This document shows, one piece after another, positions 43,928 through 50,708 of a stretch of 50,836 nucleotides of DNA. A program made the translations under genes and the position numbers. The stretch's first letter is position 1, and every line of letters starts with the position of its first letter. Location of the stretch: contig CALUWI010000016.1 of assembly GCA_944324465.1 (NCBI GenBank), positions 1 to 50,836 on the forward strand. Reading direction: 5' to 3'. Origin of the DNA: an uncultured Mucispirillum sp. Lineage in GTDB: Bacteria; Chrysiogenota; Deferribacteres; Deferribacterales; Mucispirillaceae. Under the pieces are notes generated by a model. That model searched no databases and was not told the DNA's origin. It saw nothing but the letters and a program-made list of their open reading frames with translations.

Positions 43928-45052
43928 TTATTTAAAACCTTTTGATAAAAATGCTATTACAAGAATAGATGCAGCTATTAAAGTAAAAGCTGTTGTTAAG
44001 TTTGTCATTTCTGATACAAAACCCATAACAGAGGGCCCAAATAATGTGCCAAAATAACCAATAGTGGCAACGGCAGAAACGGCTATACTTAAAGGCATAT
44101 TCCCTTTATATCTGCCTGAAGCTGATATTGTAACAGGCACCATATTTGCAAGACCAGCACCAGCTAATGTAAAGCCAAGAAATGATGCCCAGTGGTAAGG
44201 AATATAAAGCATAATTAATATACCTGCTACAGCAGTTAAGCTGCTTGCAAAAAGAATATTTTTTATGGAAAATTTATCGGCTATCTTATCTCCAAGAAGT
44301 CTGAATATCCCCATAGTTATATAAAAAAGAGAAAATGAATATCCTGCATACTGTGGCTCTATTTTTCTGACTTCCTGCATAAATAATGCACTCCAGTCAA
44401 GTATTACACCTTCTGCCACAAATGCTATAAAGCATATCATACCTAATATAAAAAGTATCCGTGTAGGCTTTATAAAAAGTTTCTGTGGTACTTCGCCGCC
44501 GTAATTTAAAAGGGCAGGGATACTAAATACAAGCAGCAGAAAAATAAGCCCTGTGATAATATATACAGCTGTTATATGTGTAAAATGTTTTAAAAGATAT
44601 GTTACTATTAAAATACCAAAAAATACTCCAAAGCTGTACATGCTGTGAAAACCTGCCATTAAATGCTTTTTCATACCTTCTTCTACTAATGCACCCTGTA
44701 TATTTAATGTAACATCAAGCATACCAAGCCCTACACCAAATAAAAACATAAATACAGCCATTATAAATATACTTCCAGATACTGAAAGCACTAAAAGGCA
44801 TATAATTATTAATGATGTAGATAAAATAACAGTTTTTCTGCAGCCTATTTTTGCAGCAGTAAGCCCTGTAAAAAACATACTGATTACTGCCCCAAAAGCA
44901 ATCTGCAAAAGTAAAAGCCCCAGCTCTGCTTTATCTATAAGCAGCCTGTCTTTTACAAAAGGTACAAGCATTGCCCACATACCAAAGGCAAAGCCTAGTA
45001 TAATATATCCTGTATATGTGCTTATTCTGTGGCGTAAAGATATGTTATTCAT
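43928..45052 (-). CDS. MFS transporter, fucose-permease-like (second copy)
   Basis: Twelve-helix major facilitator protein of 374 residues. The helix 2-3 loop has the family's GCRKTV pattern, and HSMYSFGVF and GLGMLDVTLNIQG match the paralogue at 45517-46671 (HSMYSGGSF and GVGIADVTANIQA). Substrate unknown; sugar or drug efflux are both possible. Its start overlaps the MarR gene by 8 bases, so they are coupled. Confidence 0.83.
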   Translation of the reverse strand: MNNISLRHRISTYTGYIILGFAFGMWAMLVPFVKDRLLIDKAELGLLLLQIAFGAVISMFFTGLTAAKIGCRKTVILSTSLIIICLLVLSVSGSIFIMAVFMFLFGVGLGMLDVTLNIQGALVEEGMKKHLMAGFHSMYSFGVFFGILIVTYLLKHFTHITAVYIITGLIFLLLVFSIPALLNYGGEVPQKLFIKPTRILFILGMICFIAFVAEGVILDWSALFMQEVRKIEPQYAGYSFSLFYITMGIFRLLGDKIADKFSIKNILFASSLTAVAGILIMLYIPYHWASFLGFTLAGAGLANMVPVTISASGRYKGNMPLSIAVSAVATIGYFGTLFGPSVMGFVSEMTNLTTAFTLIAASILVIAFLSKGFK

Positions 45053-45491
45053 AATCTTTTCCTAATAAAGTTTCTTCAGTTATATCTATAATCTTTTTAT
45101 ATGTATTAAGCATTGTATCTATTTCATTTTTATTTAAATGCTTTAATATTTCTTTTTCTGTCATTTTAAATGCTGCCTGTATGGTTTGTACTATTTTTTT
45201 ACCGCTTTCTGTAAGTGATATGTTTATTTTACGCCTGTCTTTTGCCGAATGAGTGCGTAAAATGTAGCCTTTTTTTTCAAGTTTATCAAGCATGGATGTG
45301 ATGCTCTGCTTTGGTATAAGCAGTTCTTCTGAAAGTTTTGTAGGCTCACTTTTTCCATTACTTTCTTCAATAGATAAAAGCAGGTGAGCATCCATATATA
45401 ATATGTTGTATTTTTTACACCACTTTGTAAAAATAATATTTTCCATTTTTACAAGCTGATAATGGTCTGTAATAAAGCTGTTGTTTTCCAT
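45045..45491 (-). CDS. MarR-family transcriptional regulator
   Basis: A 148-residue winged-helix protein. Recognition helix LLIPKQSITSMLDKLEKKGYI and wing RTHSAKDRRKINISLT are typical of MarR. The N-terminal 40 residues form the dimer helix. It lies between two paralogous transporter genes on the same strand, so it probably represses both. A palindrome upstream of the first transporter (46712-46731) is a candidate operator. Inducing ligand unknown. Confidence 0.88.
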   Translation of the reverse strand: MENNSFITDHYQLVKMENIIFTKWCKKYNILYMDAHLLLSIEESNGKSEPTKLSEELLIPKQSITSMLDKLEKKGYILRTHSAKDRRKINISLTESGKKIVQTIQAAFKMTEKEILKHLNKNEIDTMLNTYKKIIDITEETLLGKDYE

Positions 45492-45516
45492 TTTACACCT
45501 GTGATTGATTTATATA

Positions 45517-46671
45517 TTATTTCCTGTTTAGTTTCAAGGAAAAAGCACCTGCAAGTATAAGCAGCACACATACAAAAATAAAAGCAGTAATCAAGTTTGT
45601 AAGGTGAGAAATATAGCCAATAACAGCAGGTCCCATCAGAGAGCCTGTATAACCTATTGTAGTAACTATGGCTATAGCAGCATTTAATGAGATTTTACCT
45701 TTTACATAAGGTATTGCAGATACTGCCATAGGTATAATATTTGCAGCACCAAATCCAATAACAGCAAATCCAGTATATAGTATAATCTTATTATTAAATA
45801 TAAGGATACAGGCAATACCAAAAACAGCTGTTACAGCACTTACTGCAATAATTTTACCAGTATCAAACTTGTTTGCAAAATAATCACCTAAAAGCCTGCC
45901 AATAGTAACAGATGCAAAAAATATAGAAAATCCATAACCAGATATTTCCTTTGGAAAGTCTTTATAGTCAATTAAAAGTATAGCTGCCCAGTCAAGCATA
46001 GAACCTTCTGTCATATATGCTGCAAAACAAATAAAACCTGCAATTATTAAAAGCAGCGGCGGCATTGTAAATTTTTTATCCTGCTTTACTGTGTTTTCCA
46101 TTGAGCCGGAAGCTGCAAAGCCACGAAAAGATATAATCAGAAATATAAAAAGTATTATAAGCATTATATTTATAACAGTATTAATATTAAAACTTTTAGT
46201 TAAAAAAAATGATGCAGTTATACCGCATATAAAACTGCCACCTGAATACATGCTGTGAAAACCTGACATGAGCTTTTTATTAAAAGCCCGCTCCATATAA
46301 ACTGCCTGTATGTTGGCTGTAACATCTGCTATTCCTACACCTGCACCTAAAATAAATACTGCAGCAGTTAATGATAATGTGCCAGGCATGATATTTATAA
46401 AATAAAGTGAAAAAATCATAACAATTACAGAAAAAATAAATGTGCGTCTGCAGCCAAATCGGGAAACAAGTTTATCTGTTATCATCATTGCAGCTAATGC
46501 ACCAATGCTTAAAAACATTAGTATAGAGCCTAACTTTAAGTCATTAATATTAAGCCTTAGCTTAATAAAAGGTATGCTTAATGCCCATAATGCAACAGAA
46601 GAACCAACTATGAAAAAACCAATATAAGTAGATATTCTGTGATAAAGCCCTGCAGAAATATTGTTTTCCAT
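45517..46671 (-). CDS. MFS transporter, fucose-permease-like (first copy)
   Basis: Twelve-helix MFS protein of 384 residues, clearly paralogous to the 43928-45052 protein: both begin with a short MENN or MNN, then HRISTY, and both have a HSMYS segment and the SMLDWAAILL / VILDWSALFM pair. It is the first gene of the MFS-MarR-MFS transcript, with 25 bases between its stop and the MarR start. AGGTGG precedes its ATG. Confidence 0.83.
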   Translation of the reverse strand: MENNISAGLYHRISTYIGFFIVGSSVALWALSIPFIKLRLNINDLKLGSILMFLSIGALAAMMITDKLVSRFGCRRTFIFSVIVMIFSLYFINIMPGTLSLTAAVFILGAGVGIADVTANIQAVYMERAFNKKLMSGFHSMYSGGSFICGITASFFLTKSFNINTVINIMLIILFIFLIISFRGFAASGSMENTVKQDKKFTMPPLLLIIAGFICFAAYMTEGSMLDWAAILLIDYKDFPKEISGYGFSIFFASVTIGRLLGDYFANKFDTGKIIAVSAVTAVFGIACILIFNNKIILYTGFAVIGFGAANIIPMAVSAIPYVKGKISLNAAIAIVTTIGYTGSLMGPAVIGYISHLTNLITAFIFVCVLLILAGAFSLKLNRK

Positions 46672-47048: not shown

Positions 47049-47459
47049 ATGAGCGACAAAAAAGAAATTTTAGCAGGAATTATTGACAGGAAGTTTGAAT
47101 CAAGGCTTGAAATGGTTTTACTTAAAAAAGGCATAGAGCCTGCAATATTAGATGAAGTGATAGAAGAAAGCATTTTTGATGATGATGAAGAATATTTTTA
47201 TGTTTTTGCAATCAATCACAATGCAGAAAATCACCCTGTGCATATAATTGCCTATGAAATAGAAGAAGGCAAAGTAAAAAGCCATGTATGCTGCAAAAAA
47301 ATAAAAGAAGATAAACTTACAGTTATTGATTATGCTTTTTCATTAAAAGAAGCAAGAAAGATAGCTGCAGCACTGCAGGATAAAAAAATATTTGACGATG
47401 TAAAAGTTGATTTCTGCGGTTCATGTGTTGGCAAATTATACGGCGATATTGATGATTAA
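47049..47459 (+). CDS. Small acidic protein of unknown function
   Basis: A 136-residue soluble protein, rich in Glu, Asp and Lys, without signal peptide or membrane helix. It contains two notable Cys pairs, HVCCKK and the C-terminal DFCGSCVGKLYGDI. I recognise no family. AGGAGGA at 47038-47044 is a very strong ribosome-binding site, and a terminator follows at once, so it is monocistronic. It lies between tRNA-Arg and the flagellin regulatory region. Confidence 0.75.
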   Translation: MSDKKEILAGIIDRKFESRLEMVLLKKGIEPAILDEVIEESIFDDDEEYFYVFAINHNAENHPVHIIAYEIEEGKVKSHVCCKKIKEDKLTVIDYAFSLKEARKIAAALQDKKIFDDVKVDFCGSCVGKLYGDIDD

Positions 47460-47969: not shown

Positions 47970-48181
47970 TTTTTTTGTTTCTGTAAGGCTTTATGCAAGG
48001 ACGAATAATTCTGGTTATATTTTACTAATATCATTGCGTAAAAAGGAAGTGGAGAGCCTGCAATCTTATTATAAAATTCATAACCGCAAAAAACACTAAC
48101 TTTTTAAAATGATGCAAAATTTTGACAATAGAATTGCATCTAAAAAAAGAAAAAACAAAATTAAAGGCACAAAACACTTAT

Positions 48182-48211
48182 CTATAAATTATTTGGAGAG
48201 ATAATTTATAG
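48182..48211 (+). promoter_or_regulatory. Flagellin leader hairpin with GGA in the loop (candidate CsrA site)
   Basis: CTATAAATTAT (48182-48192) pairs perfectly with ATAATTTATAG (48201-48211). The 8-base loop TTGGAGAG presents a GGA. The Shine-Dalgarno GGAGGA (48219-48224) is a second GGA site 22 bases later. This two-site layout is what CsrA uses to repress flagellin translation in Bacillus subtilis. Confidence 0.6.
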
Positions 48212-48229
48212 TAAAACTGGAGGAAAATT

Positions 48230-50515
48230 ATGGCACTTTCAATCGTTAACAACCCAACAGCAATCGGCGCACAAGGCGGCGTAAACAGCGTAAACAGCAA
48301 ACTTGCAAAAACAATAAAATCTTTATCAACTGGTTTAAGAATAAATACTGCAGCAGATGATGCATCAGGCTTAGCAGTATCTGAAAAATTAAGAGCACAA
48401 ATTTCTGGTTTAAATAAAGCAGCAACAAACGCTCAAGATGCAATATCTATGTTACAGACAGCAGAGGGAGCTATGGGCTCAATGACATCTATGGTACAGC
48501 GTATAAGAGAACTTGCAGTTCAAGCAGGTGACCCAGCTTATACTACAAATGACCGTGCAATGTTACAGCTTGAAGTAGACCAGTTAAAAGAAGAAATAGA
48601 TAGAGTATCATCATCAACAGAGTTCAACACTAAAAAACTTTTAAATGGTGATGCAGCAGCTTTATGGTCAGCTTCTACAGATGATATTGAAGCAGTAATT
48701 AAAGGTGCAGCAGTAGAAGGCAACTATAAATTATCTTATGATGTAGACCCTGGTAAAAACTCAGTATATAAATCAAACATTATGCGAGTTGGCGAAGGTC
48801 AAATGTCTTATGATATTTCAGAAAACGGCACAAGCATAACAAAATTTGATAATATCACAGGTATGATGCGTGAATCTGATATACAAATAAAAGTTAAAGG
48901 TTCAGCAGCAACAACAGCAGAAGCAGTTCTTGGTGGTGGAACAGGTGGTTTTGCAGGCATGAATGTGGCAGATTTTGCTGGAGCAAGTGCAGCAATAACA
49001 GGAAATAACTCATATTCTATAGAAATAGAAGCAGTAGGCTCAAGAAGTGGTAATAATTCTGCACAGATAAAATTCCGTGTAATGAATACAAAAACTGGTG
49101 AAATCAGTGAATGGATTAATGCAACAGTTAATGCAACAGGTGGTATTGTAGCAGGTACATCTTCAGCATCATTTAAAGGACTTGTAGGTATTGCAAACAG
49201 TGTAATGGTAGGCAGTGGTGCAACAACATTTGCTGGAGCTACTTGGGAAGCAGGGGATAAAATGCTTATCAATGTGGCAGGTGCAAGAGATGAAGCATCA
49301 GGTGGAGCATCTATACAAATAGGTTCAACTGGTTCTACTTTACATATTACTACAAGTGCAACAAGTGAAGATAAACAGCTTACTCATACAATACATACAG
49401 CACAAATGGATAAAGCAGGTAATGTATATTACGGTCAAATGGATGTAACTCTTGAAAGAGGTAAAGTAGTAACGGGTATAGGTACAATAGATATTCTTGG
49501 AGCTGGTGATGTAGCAAGTAAATATACAAAACTTTCACAGCTTGCACAGTTTACAAACTCTGATGGCAGAATGATTTTAGATAATACTCAAGAGATAAGC
49601 ATATATGCAGGCAGTGGTAAAACTGCAAAAGTAACACTTGAAGGCAGCGATACAATAGCAGACTTAGAAAGTAAATTAACTTCTGCTTTAATTGACCAGC
49701 TTGATATGGGTGCAGACAGCACAAATACTTCTGCTACAACAGTTAATAATAACTTAGTAAAATTTGTAGAAACTCCAACAGGTGGCGACCATGCAGTAGA
49801 AGGAACATTTGTAATCCAAAGTGCAGTGCTTGGTGATGAATCTAACTTAACATTTGTAGGTGATGAGGCAGTATTATCAGCATTAGGTATTACTCAAATT
49901 CAGGAAGCTGCAGACTCTGCATTAAATGTAAGAGTAACAGATGCCCACACAGGTGAGTTTATTGGAGAAGATATTGTTACAGATAACAGATTAAGAAATG
50001 TAATAGAAGGTGTAGATGTAATTATCAACCCAGAATCAGCAGCAGATGTAAACTTTGTAAATGGTAAAATGGTATTTACTGATAAACTTGGAGCAGAAGA
50101 GGCATTCCTGCACATTAAAGATAATGCAACAAAAGCTGCAGTTGGTGCAAATGAAGGACAAGTAATTGATATATCTATAGGCAGATTAGATACAGTAGGT
50201 ATGGGAATTGATGGAATAAATGTAGCAACATTTAATGATGCACAAAAAGCTATCACAAAATTAGATATGGCACTTGAACAAATATCTAAAGCAAGAGCTA
50301 CAGCTGGTGCACAAATGAACAGGTTAGAATACACAATTACTAACTTAAATACAACAAGAGAAAATATGGTATCAGCAGAAAGCCGTATAAGAGATTTAGA
50401 TATGGCTCAAGCATCAAGCGACTTAGCTGCACAACAAGTATTATTGCAGTCTGCAACAGCAATGCTTGCTCAAGCTAACCAAATACCAAGCTACGCAGCA
50501 CAATTATTACAATAA
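48230..50515 (+). CDS. Flagellin, long variant
   Basis: Filament protein of 761 residues, much longer than common flagellins (about 270-500). The conserved D0/D1 ends are complete: N-terminal about 1-140 (SLSTGLRINTAADDASGLAVSEKL, split here as SLSTGLRINTA and ADDASGLAVSEKL) and C-terminal about 90 residues (LNTTRENMVSAESRIRDLD, ending IPSYAAQLLQ). The TLR5-contact helix region MVQRIRELAVQAG is kept, so the protein is probably visible to host TLR5. The middle 500 residues are a variable Ala/Gly/Thr-rich, surface-exposed domain. CTGGAGGA gives the ribosome-binding site. The leader carries a GGA hairpin, and the 3' region carries three hairpin loops complementary to the leader, so translation is probably RNA-controlled. 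Confidence 0.95.
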   Translation: MALSIVNNPTAIGAQGGVNSVNSKLAKTIKSLSTGLRINTAADDASGLAVSEKLRAQISGLNKAATNAQDAISMLQTAEGAMGSMTSMVQRIRELAVQAGDPAYTTNDRAMLQLEVDQLKEEIDRVSSSTEFNTKKLLNGDAAALWSASTDDIEAVIKGAAVEGNYKLSYDVDPGKNSVYKSNIMRVGEGQMSYDISENGTSITKFDNITGMMRESDIQIKVKGSAATTAEAVLGGGTGGFAGMNVADFAGASAAITGNNSYSIEIEAVGSRSGNNSAQIKFRVMNTKTGEISEWINATVNATGGIVAGTSSASFKGLVGIANSVMVGSGATTFAGATWEAGDKMLINVAGARDEASGGASIQIGSTGSTLHITTSATSEDKQLTHTIHTAQMDKAGNVYYGQMDVTLERGKVVTGIGTIDILGAGDVASKYTKLSQLAQFTNSDGRMILDNTQEISIYAGSGKTAKVTLEGSDTIADLESKLTSALIDQLDMGADSTNTSATTVNNNLVKFVETPTGGDHAVEGTFVIQSAVLGDESNLTFVGDEAVLSALGITQIQEAADSALNVRVTDAHTGEFIGEDIVTDNRLRNVIEGVDVIINPESAADVNFVNGKMVFTDKLGAEEAFLHIKDNATKAAVGANEGQVIDISIGRLDTVGMGIDGINVATFNDAQKAITKLDMALEQISKARATAGAQMNRLEYTITNLNTTRENMVSAESRIRDLDMAQASSDLAAQQVLLQSATAMLAQANQIPSYAAQLLQ

Positions 50516-50522
50516 TCATAAA

Positions 50523-50547
50523 ACTCCCCCTTATTAAAAGGGGGAGT
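50523..50547 (+). terminator. Hairpin just after flagellin, weak as a terminator
   Basis: ACTCCCCCTT pairs with AAGGGGGAGT over 10 bp around ATTAA. No T run follows on the plus strand (ATAAAAAAC), so read-through into the 50.6-50.7 kb region is likely. Confidence 0.5.
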
Positions 50548-50598
50548 ATAAAAAACTTTGGCTTTTGCAAAGTAGTTTGAAAAAAATATTTTACAAAA

Positions 50599-50708
50599 TC
50601 CAAAGATATACAAAGCATCTCTCCACAGCTTTGTATATTCCACAAAAAAAGTGTAGTGCCAATACACAAAAAAGGGGTTTAGGTCCTCCAGCCTAAACCT
50701 TTTTTTTA
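50599..50708 (+). ncRNA. Candidate three-loop regulatory RNA in the flagellin 3' UTR
   Basis: Three hairpins in a row. Hairpin 1: ATATACAAAGC (50606-50616) with GCTTTGTATAT (50628-50638), loop ATCTCTCCACA. Hairpin 2: GTGTA (50651-50655) with TACAC (50663-50667), loop GTGCCAA. Hairpin 3: GGTTTAGG (50676-50683) with CCTAAACC (50692-50699), loop TCCTCCAG, then eight T. Each loop is perfectly complementary to the flagellin translation-start region: 50617-50625 to 48194-48202 (9 bases), 50655-50661 to 48231-48237 (7), 50684-50691 to 48217-48224 (8). A weak promoter (TTGCAA 50565-50570, 16 bases, TATTTT 50587-50592) could make it as a separate RNA of about 110 bases; otherwise it is the end of the flagellin mRNA. 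Confidence 0.6.
50676..50708 (+). terminator. Strong terminator closing the flagellin 3' UTR RNA
   Basis: GGTTTAGG pairs with CCTAAACC, extended by GT and AT pairs outward, followed by a run of T to 50707. This is probably the true end of the flagellin transcript. Confidence 0.85.

Follow-up and report, generated by a model that had tools for sequence, protein, structure and literature searches.

Downstream of a flagellin gene in an uncultured Mucispirillum lie three consecutive hairpins with loops complementary to the region where translation of the same gene begins, and the question raised by this locus is whether a flagellin mRNA could control its own translation through its 3' end. The whole stretch of 50,836 nucleotides (hereafter the window) was analysed together with genomes of the same genus and phylum. 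Our results favor a negative feedback in which the 3' untranslated region, or an RNA cut from it, would pair with the flagellin leader.

Structure, strand and distribution of the flagellin 3' end

The gene and the hairpins that follow it are arranged as follows.

48230..50515, + strand: flagellin gene, 761 aa, whose mRNA hosts the element (Pfam Flagellin_N 4e-38, Flagellin_C 1e-20)
50523..50547, + strand: hairpin HA, immediately 3' of the stop codon, ACTCCCCCTT...AAGGGGGAGT, with a stem that is invariant in seven species
50556..50605, + strand: long hairpin HB, predicted in 7/7 species
50606..50638, + strand: hairpin H1; its loop at 50617-50627, AUCUCUCCACA, is antisense to the loops of leader hairpins L1 and L2
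50651..50667, + strand: hairpin H2; its loop at 50656-50662, GUGCCAA, is antisense to the start codon region
50669..50706, + strand: hairpin H3 with a U-tract; its loop at 50685-50690, CCUCCA, has a U-G closing pair and is antisense to the Shine-Dalgarno sequence (SD)

Orthologs of this flagellin in three other genomes of the genus (G006, G008 and G001) are 81-90% identical. On its 5' side lies an ORF of 136 aa (47049-47459) that has no Pfam match; the ORF is syntenic with the flagellin in G000, G008, G009, G001 and G007 and degenerate in G006. Farther away, at 43928-46671, a small ORF resembling a MarR-type regulator sits between two related transporter-like ORFs, all three being putative assignments made by appearance. 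An Rfam search of the window at the gathering score returned a single match, to a tRNA, and none to the 3' element.

From the stop codon onward the RNA is predicted to fold into the five hairpins HA, HB, H1, H2 and H3 in all seven species that carry the element. The H1-H3 region has a minimum free energy (MFE) of -40.6 kcal/mol (z -6.7), and an equal fold was obtained in 0/200 shuffles. Covariation supports the same region, with four pairs and nine cells changed on both sides and a score that none of 500 shuffles and no slid version reached. Three of these pairs belong to the stem of H1 (GU to UA, AU to GC and AU to GC), which encloses the invariant core CUCUCCAC, and one pair belongs to H3, while stem and loop of H2 are both invariant across the seven species. 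The loops are markedly better conserved than their surroundings, since only 2/24 loop columns vary, versus 32/59 of the other unpaired columns. In HB the outer arms are unchanged and the inner part covaries through double changes from UA to CG; HA has no U-tract on the + strand. The invariant arms of HA and HB (50523-50605) are unaccounted for by complementarity to the leader, apart from a short UCCAAA/UUUGGA match between the 3' arm of HB and L2, and these hairpins are possibly processing or stabilising elements. These comparisons should be interpreted with some caution, since the seven species fall into about two clades and are therefore not independent.

The strand can be read from the stems themselves. 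In 20 stem cells a G-U pair of the + strand would turn into A-C if the minus strand were the RNA, versus about one in the reverse case, and this excess identifies the + strand as the functional RNA. Moreover, conservation runs unbroken from the stop codon and ends just past the U-tract of H3, which is the pattern expected of a 3'UTR that closes at an intrinsic terminator; H3 is probably that terminator. A search for a promoter-like site within the 3'UTR found none, so that a free RNA would require processing. Together with the terminator-like H3, this negative result suggests that the 3' RNA is cotranscribed with the flagellin mRNA.

The distribution of the element was followed with a three-loop pattern and a covariance model of H1-H3 in 51 genomes of the phylum, comprising 10 members of the genus and 41 others. 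A single strong copy per genome is present in 7/10 Mucispirillum genomes, each time 3' of the orthologous flagellin. True copies score 111-122 bits and the weak remainder outside the genus 26-36 bits; the remaining 41 genomes gave no convincing copy with either pattern or model. The element-bearing genomes also have the leader signature, except for G004, in which the contig starts inside the gene; the leader comparisons below thus cover six species. Paralogous flagellins in Mucispirillum genomes have neither the leader sites nor the 3' element. In the assemblies of G002, G003 and G005 no ortholog was found of either this flagellin or the 136-aa gene on its 5' side, and gene and element are either missing jointly or located in assembly gaps. 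Contigs end within flagellin N-terminal regions in G000 (C8:129760-130134, the end of L031) and G009 (C48, the end of L047), and flagellin copies are consequently probably under-counted in these draft assemblies. Across 84,980 genomes the strict three-loop pattern gave 43 matches, among them five in Mucispirillum; a rough estimate puts the number expected by chance at about 27.

Complementarity between the 3' loops and the flagellin leader

The leader contains the following sites.

48032..48065, + strand: leader hairpin L1, in the -184 region, loop AAGUGGAGAG, the leader segment best conserved across six species
48166..48170, + strand: GGCAC, a possible second site for loop 2, suggestive only
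48183..48210, + strand: leader hairpin L2, loop UUGGAGAG, containing the loop 1 target 48194-48202
48217..48224, + strand: SD CTGGAGGA, target of loop 3, with an 8-nt match in 6/6 species
48231..48237, + strand: start codon region TGGCACT, target of loop 2, invariant in 6/6 species (paralogs have ATGGCT)

The preliminary description of this DNA had reported three loops perfectly antisense to the ribosome-binding region, and all three matches proved to be exact and to lie in predicted hairpin loops. The loop 1 match ATCTCTCCA (50617-50625, 9 nt) is the exact reverse complement of 48194-48202 and lies wholly inside the 11-nt loop. Loop 2 contributes AGTGCCA (50655-50661, 7 nt), the exact reverse complement of 48231-48237; as RNA, AGUGCCA consists of the 7-nt loop GUGCCAA less its last base, plus one base of the closing pair. 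The loop 3 match TCCTCCAG (50684-50691, 8 nt) is the exact reverse complement of 48217-48224, and UCCUCCAG corresponds to the 6-nt loop with its U-G closing pair.

That such matches would hardly arise by chance had also been claimed, and the claim is well supported. In dinucleotide shuffles of the 60-nt target, the chance per loop was 5.7e-4, 9.9e-3 and 2.3e-3 for loops 1, 2 and 3, two loops matched in 4/300,000 shuffles and all three in 0/300,000; word frequencies over about 240 kb of the same genome (stretches of about 190 kb in total plus the window) gave similar odds. Among 162 sampled gene starts the flagellin start ranks first with 24 matched nucleotides, ahead of a next best of 20 that comes mostly from one loop, and there are not many equally good matches elsewhere in this sample. 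When the loops in each gene's own 3' flank were compared with that gene's own start, the flagellin again came first (24), and the next value (20) was a low-complexity match, TTATTATTA. Flagellins of other genera, counted at correctly oriented loci only, had no strong matches to loops of their own (sums 3-15). On the strength of the shuffles, gene starts and own-3'-flank controls we reject a chance origin. Inverted duplication is an unlikely origin because the matches are confined to the loops and the stems do not match.

An unbiased scan for conserved complementarity gave the same picture. Fourteen complementary 6-mers are kept at the same alignment positions in 6/6 testable species, versus 1 and 1 in the control searches, and most of the 14 connect loops 1-3 with L1, L2, the SD or the start. 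The 3'UTR thus carries complementarity to its own translation initiation region that is conserved and exceeds chance. The comparison of relatives for compensatory changes, by which the pairing was to be checked, found none between loops and targets across the six testable species, because both partners are invariant. The targets, namely the SD, codons 1-3 and the GGA loops, would stay conserved regardless of any pairing with the loops.

Loop 1 adds complexity to this picture. The preliminary description placed its partner at 48194-48202, in the loop of L2. The match is exact, but the target TGGAGAGAT is only partly loop, as its final AU lies in the stem and the MFE structure pairs still more of it; moreover, a better, more conserved and more accessible site in L1 had been overlooked. 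The L1 target GUGGAGAG (48049-48056) is the exact complement of the invariant core of loop 1 in every species compared, and a variable pair in the outer stem of L1 stays pairable (AU/GU/UA/UG). The stem of L2 also covaries (two pairs changed on both sides) around an invariant loop. In clade A (G000, G006, G008 and G009) loop 1 matches L2 over 9-10 nt and L1 over 8, and in clade B (G001 and G007) it matches L2 over 7 nt and L1 over 9. Drift of the loops in relatives had been named as an observation that would count against pairing; the loops are nearly invariant, although in one clade the match of loop 1 to 48194 shrinks from 9 to 7 nt without a change in the leader. In clade B the possible second site of loop 2 is extended to the complete UGGCACU and lies at a slightly different position.

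Predicted net pairing energies rank the contacts in a similar manner. Loop 1 with L1 gives about -12.3 kcal/mol in 6/6 species, and with L2 -6 to -7 kcal/mol, the opening of L2 costing about 3-6.5 kcal/mol; loop 3 with the SD gives -8.8 to -9.6 kcal/mol and loop 2 with the start region -4.6 to -5.9 kcal/mol. By predicted energy, conservation and accessibility, L1 would be the best partner of loop 1. A terminator upstream of L1 ends at about 47971, and L1 is able to act only if it lies inside the transcript.

A proposed feedback and its alternatives

We hypothesize that the flagellin 3'UTR, or an RNA cut from it, pairs with its own leader at the SD, the start codon and the GGA loops and thereby exerts negative feedback, and we assign this reading a probability of roughly 0.7. 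According to this hypothesis the flagellin mRNA would end with five hairpins that make up a structured 3'UTR, and the final three would expose single-stranded loops. Loop 3 would pair with the SD, loop 2 with the start codon and the second codon, and loop 1 would dock on the GGA loops of both leader hairpins, L1 (48049) and L2 (48194). Action could be in trans, by an RNA cleaved from the 3' end, or in cis, within the intact mRNA; in both cases pairing would exclude ribosomes and limit flagellin synthesis as the mRNA accumulates. Transcription, processing, actual pairing, CsrA binding and net repression are steps that we infer. Loops 2 and 3 are in a compatible antiparallel order for joint binding of start and SD; loop 1 is not, as the preliminary description had rightly cautioned, and being non-collinear it may bind independently or to a different molecule. 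The earlier suggestion of a 3'UTR RNA contacting the flagellin start is borne out computationally as regards its structure, its + strand, its conservation in seven species, its one-to-one association with the flagellin, its exact and conserved complementarity and its specificity among the sampled starts, while the contact itself stays a prediction.

The setting in which such a feedback would operate is that of CsrA and FliW. All 10 genomes of the genus encode csrA, and in both neighbourhoods inspected a FliW gene (Pfam E 7e-38) adjoins it. A hairpin with GGA in its loop together with a GGAGG-type SD occurs in the Mucispirillum flagellin leaders examined and in the leaders of other genera that are shown in the right orientation (loci L006-L030 for other genera; L031, L034, L042, L044 and L050 for paralogs). 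Flagellin leaders across the order have the GGA-loop hairpin 5' of the GGAGG SD in a form resembling the CsrA consensus, e.g. AACACGGATGTT and CAAGGATGA. The equivalent arrangement in the Campylobacter flaA leader, a GGA hairpin plus the SD, was shown to bind CsrA (PMC4894983). The Mucispirillum leader thus displays the sequence features of a CsrA-repressed flagellin leader, with GGA in a loop, GGA in the SD, and csrA and fliW in the genome, and it looks to be under CsrA control. L2 is probably a CsrA site, as paralogs and flagellins of other genera have GGA hairpins at the equivalent position, and L1, about 180 nt 5' of the flagellin start, is a probable extra site of this type. The 3' loops are antisense to the GGA sites of the leader as well as to the SD and the start codon. 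Since the same GGA sites resemble CsrA sites, the 3' RNA would compete with CsrA or replace it in the CsrA-FliW-flagellin circuit. We tentatively extend the hypothesis, at somewhat less than even odds, to an RNA arm of this switch, in which a three-loop kissing 3' end would act against CsrA and ribosomes and make flagellin translation self-limiting without detectable Hfq. Hfq was detected in 0/10 genomes of the genus by a search that did detect controls such as E. coli and B. subtilis, and its absence is compatible with a self-structured RNA.

The same GGA sites also allow an opposite sign of regulation, in which loop 1 (and loop 3) would evict CsrA and so activate or time flagellin translation. 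In the leader, loop 1 is directed at GGA hairpin loops only, with L1 giving the strongest predicted pairing; CsrA and FliW are both encoded, and flagellin leaders generally carry GGA hairpins. However, the start codon and the SD are themselves the targets of loops 2 and 3, so that a ribosome block would be expected regardless of CsrA, and CsrA binding enters this argument only by inference. We regard such an anti-repressor as unlikely.

Small RNAs with C-rich loops that bind SD sequences are a known kind, and a C-rich motif was also noted in the study of icaR (PMC3868564). The element could accordingly act mainly in trans on other mRNAs, with its own leader as one target among several. Loop 1 matches, over its full 11 nt, the SD region of a gene for a YggT-like membrane protein (TGTGGAGAGAT, L115:7930-7945, at G000 C5:62931), and this match is kept in G000, G003, G006 and G008. 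Yet G003, in which element and flagellin were not found, retains that SD, and clade B lacks it, which leaves the YggT-like gene unsupported as a trans target of loop 1. In addition, no other sampled gene start strongly matches more than one loop, and loop 2 is specific to this flagellin start. A mainly trans-acting role is therefore improbable.

A simpler explanation would be a plain terminator with an mRNA-stabilising 3'UTR, its complementarity being due to chance and to common SD/anti-SD words. H3 is indeed a good terminator and UCCUCC an ordinary anti-SD word. This account is very improbable given that all three matches never recurred in the shuffles, that the loops are more conserved than other unpaired positions, that conserved complementary 6-mers far outnumber those of the controls (14 vs 1 and 1), and that H2 is invariant though it is no terminator. 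Finally, a functional minus strand acting as a sponge of the CsrB/RsmZ type, on which H1 and H3 would give the GGA loops UGUGGAGAGAU and CUGGAGGA and which has terminator-like sequences too, is hardly credible, as those loops exist on the minus strand only, the 20 G-U cells of the + strand would become A-C mismatches there (about one vice versa), the H2 minus loop UUGGCAC is invariant yet lacks GGA, and conservation stops at the + strand U-tract.

Relation to known systems and significance

Only a small number of bacterial 3'UTRs regulate their own message, and the well-studied cases considered here rely on one main seed, frequently together with Hfq. In RNAIII of Staphylococcus aureus several C-rich hairpin loops contact the SDs and leader hairpins of targets through loop-loop interactions; RNAIII, however, is a separate gene that acts on other genes, whereas the flagellin element is bound to its host mRNA. 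The predicted pairing of a 3'UTR with its own SD has a likeness in icaR of S. aureus, whose 3'UTR contains a motif that binds the mRNA's own SD and keeps ribosomes from loading, the choice between cis and trans being open (PMC3868564). There a single UCCCCUG motif lies in a long 3'UTR, whereas the flagellin element has three conserved loops directed at the SD, the start codon and the GGA hairpins. OppZ and CarZ of Vibrio cholerae are autoregulatory sRNAs derived from 3'UTRs, OppZ requiring RNase E maturation and Hfq (PMC7398697). They share with our proposal a negative feedback in which the regulated mRNA supplies the acting RNA from its 3' end, but Mucispirillum is without detectable Hfq and its element would make multi-loop contacts. 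FliX of E. coli derives from the fliC 3'UTR, base-pairs with the flagellin mRNA it comes from and reduces flagellin (PMC10578931), and is similar insofar as a flagellin 3'UTR RNA is here predicted to have its own flagellin mRNA as partner; its site, however, is within the fliC coding sequence, whereas the predicted Mucispirillum sites are the SD, the start codon and the leader hairpins. By analogy with icaR, OppZ and FliX, the flagellin element would follow the same principle with a new architecture and in a new lineage, and we claim neither descent nor homology.

The CsrA-FliW control of flaA and hag is matched in the GGA of leader hairpin loops and SD and in the fliW-csrA pair (PMC4894983, PMC6529632). 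Mucispirillum would add to that circuit a 3'UTR RNA antisense to the GGA sites, which is undescribed there in the literature searched. The main text of the paper on the M. schaedleri genome and metatranscriptome contains nothing on flagellin (PMC5285517). The earlier statement that no flagellin regulator of this form had been described thus holds for the multi-loop architecture in the literature searched, but FliX (PMC10578931) and icaR (PMC3868564) are precedents for its principle.

In conclusion, this flagellin mRNA holds in its 3' end a full antisense set, directed at the ribosome site, the start codon and CsrA-like hairpins, which has stayed the same throughout a genus in which Hfq is not detectable. 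Should the set function as predicted, a post-transcriptional switch that is among the best studied in motility would gain a feedback arm made of RNA. The element also lends itself to clean tests of whether bacterial 3'UTRs act in cis or in trans, and it does so in gut bacteria, a setting in which flagellin is relevant to host immunity.
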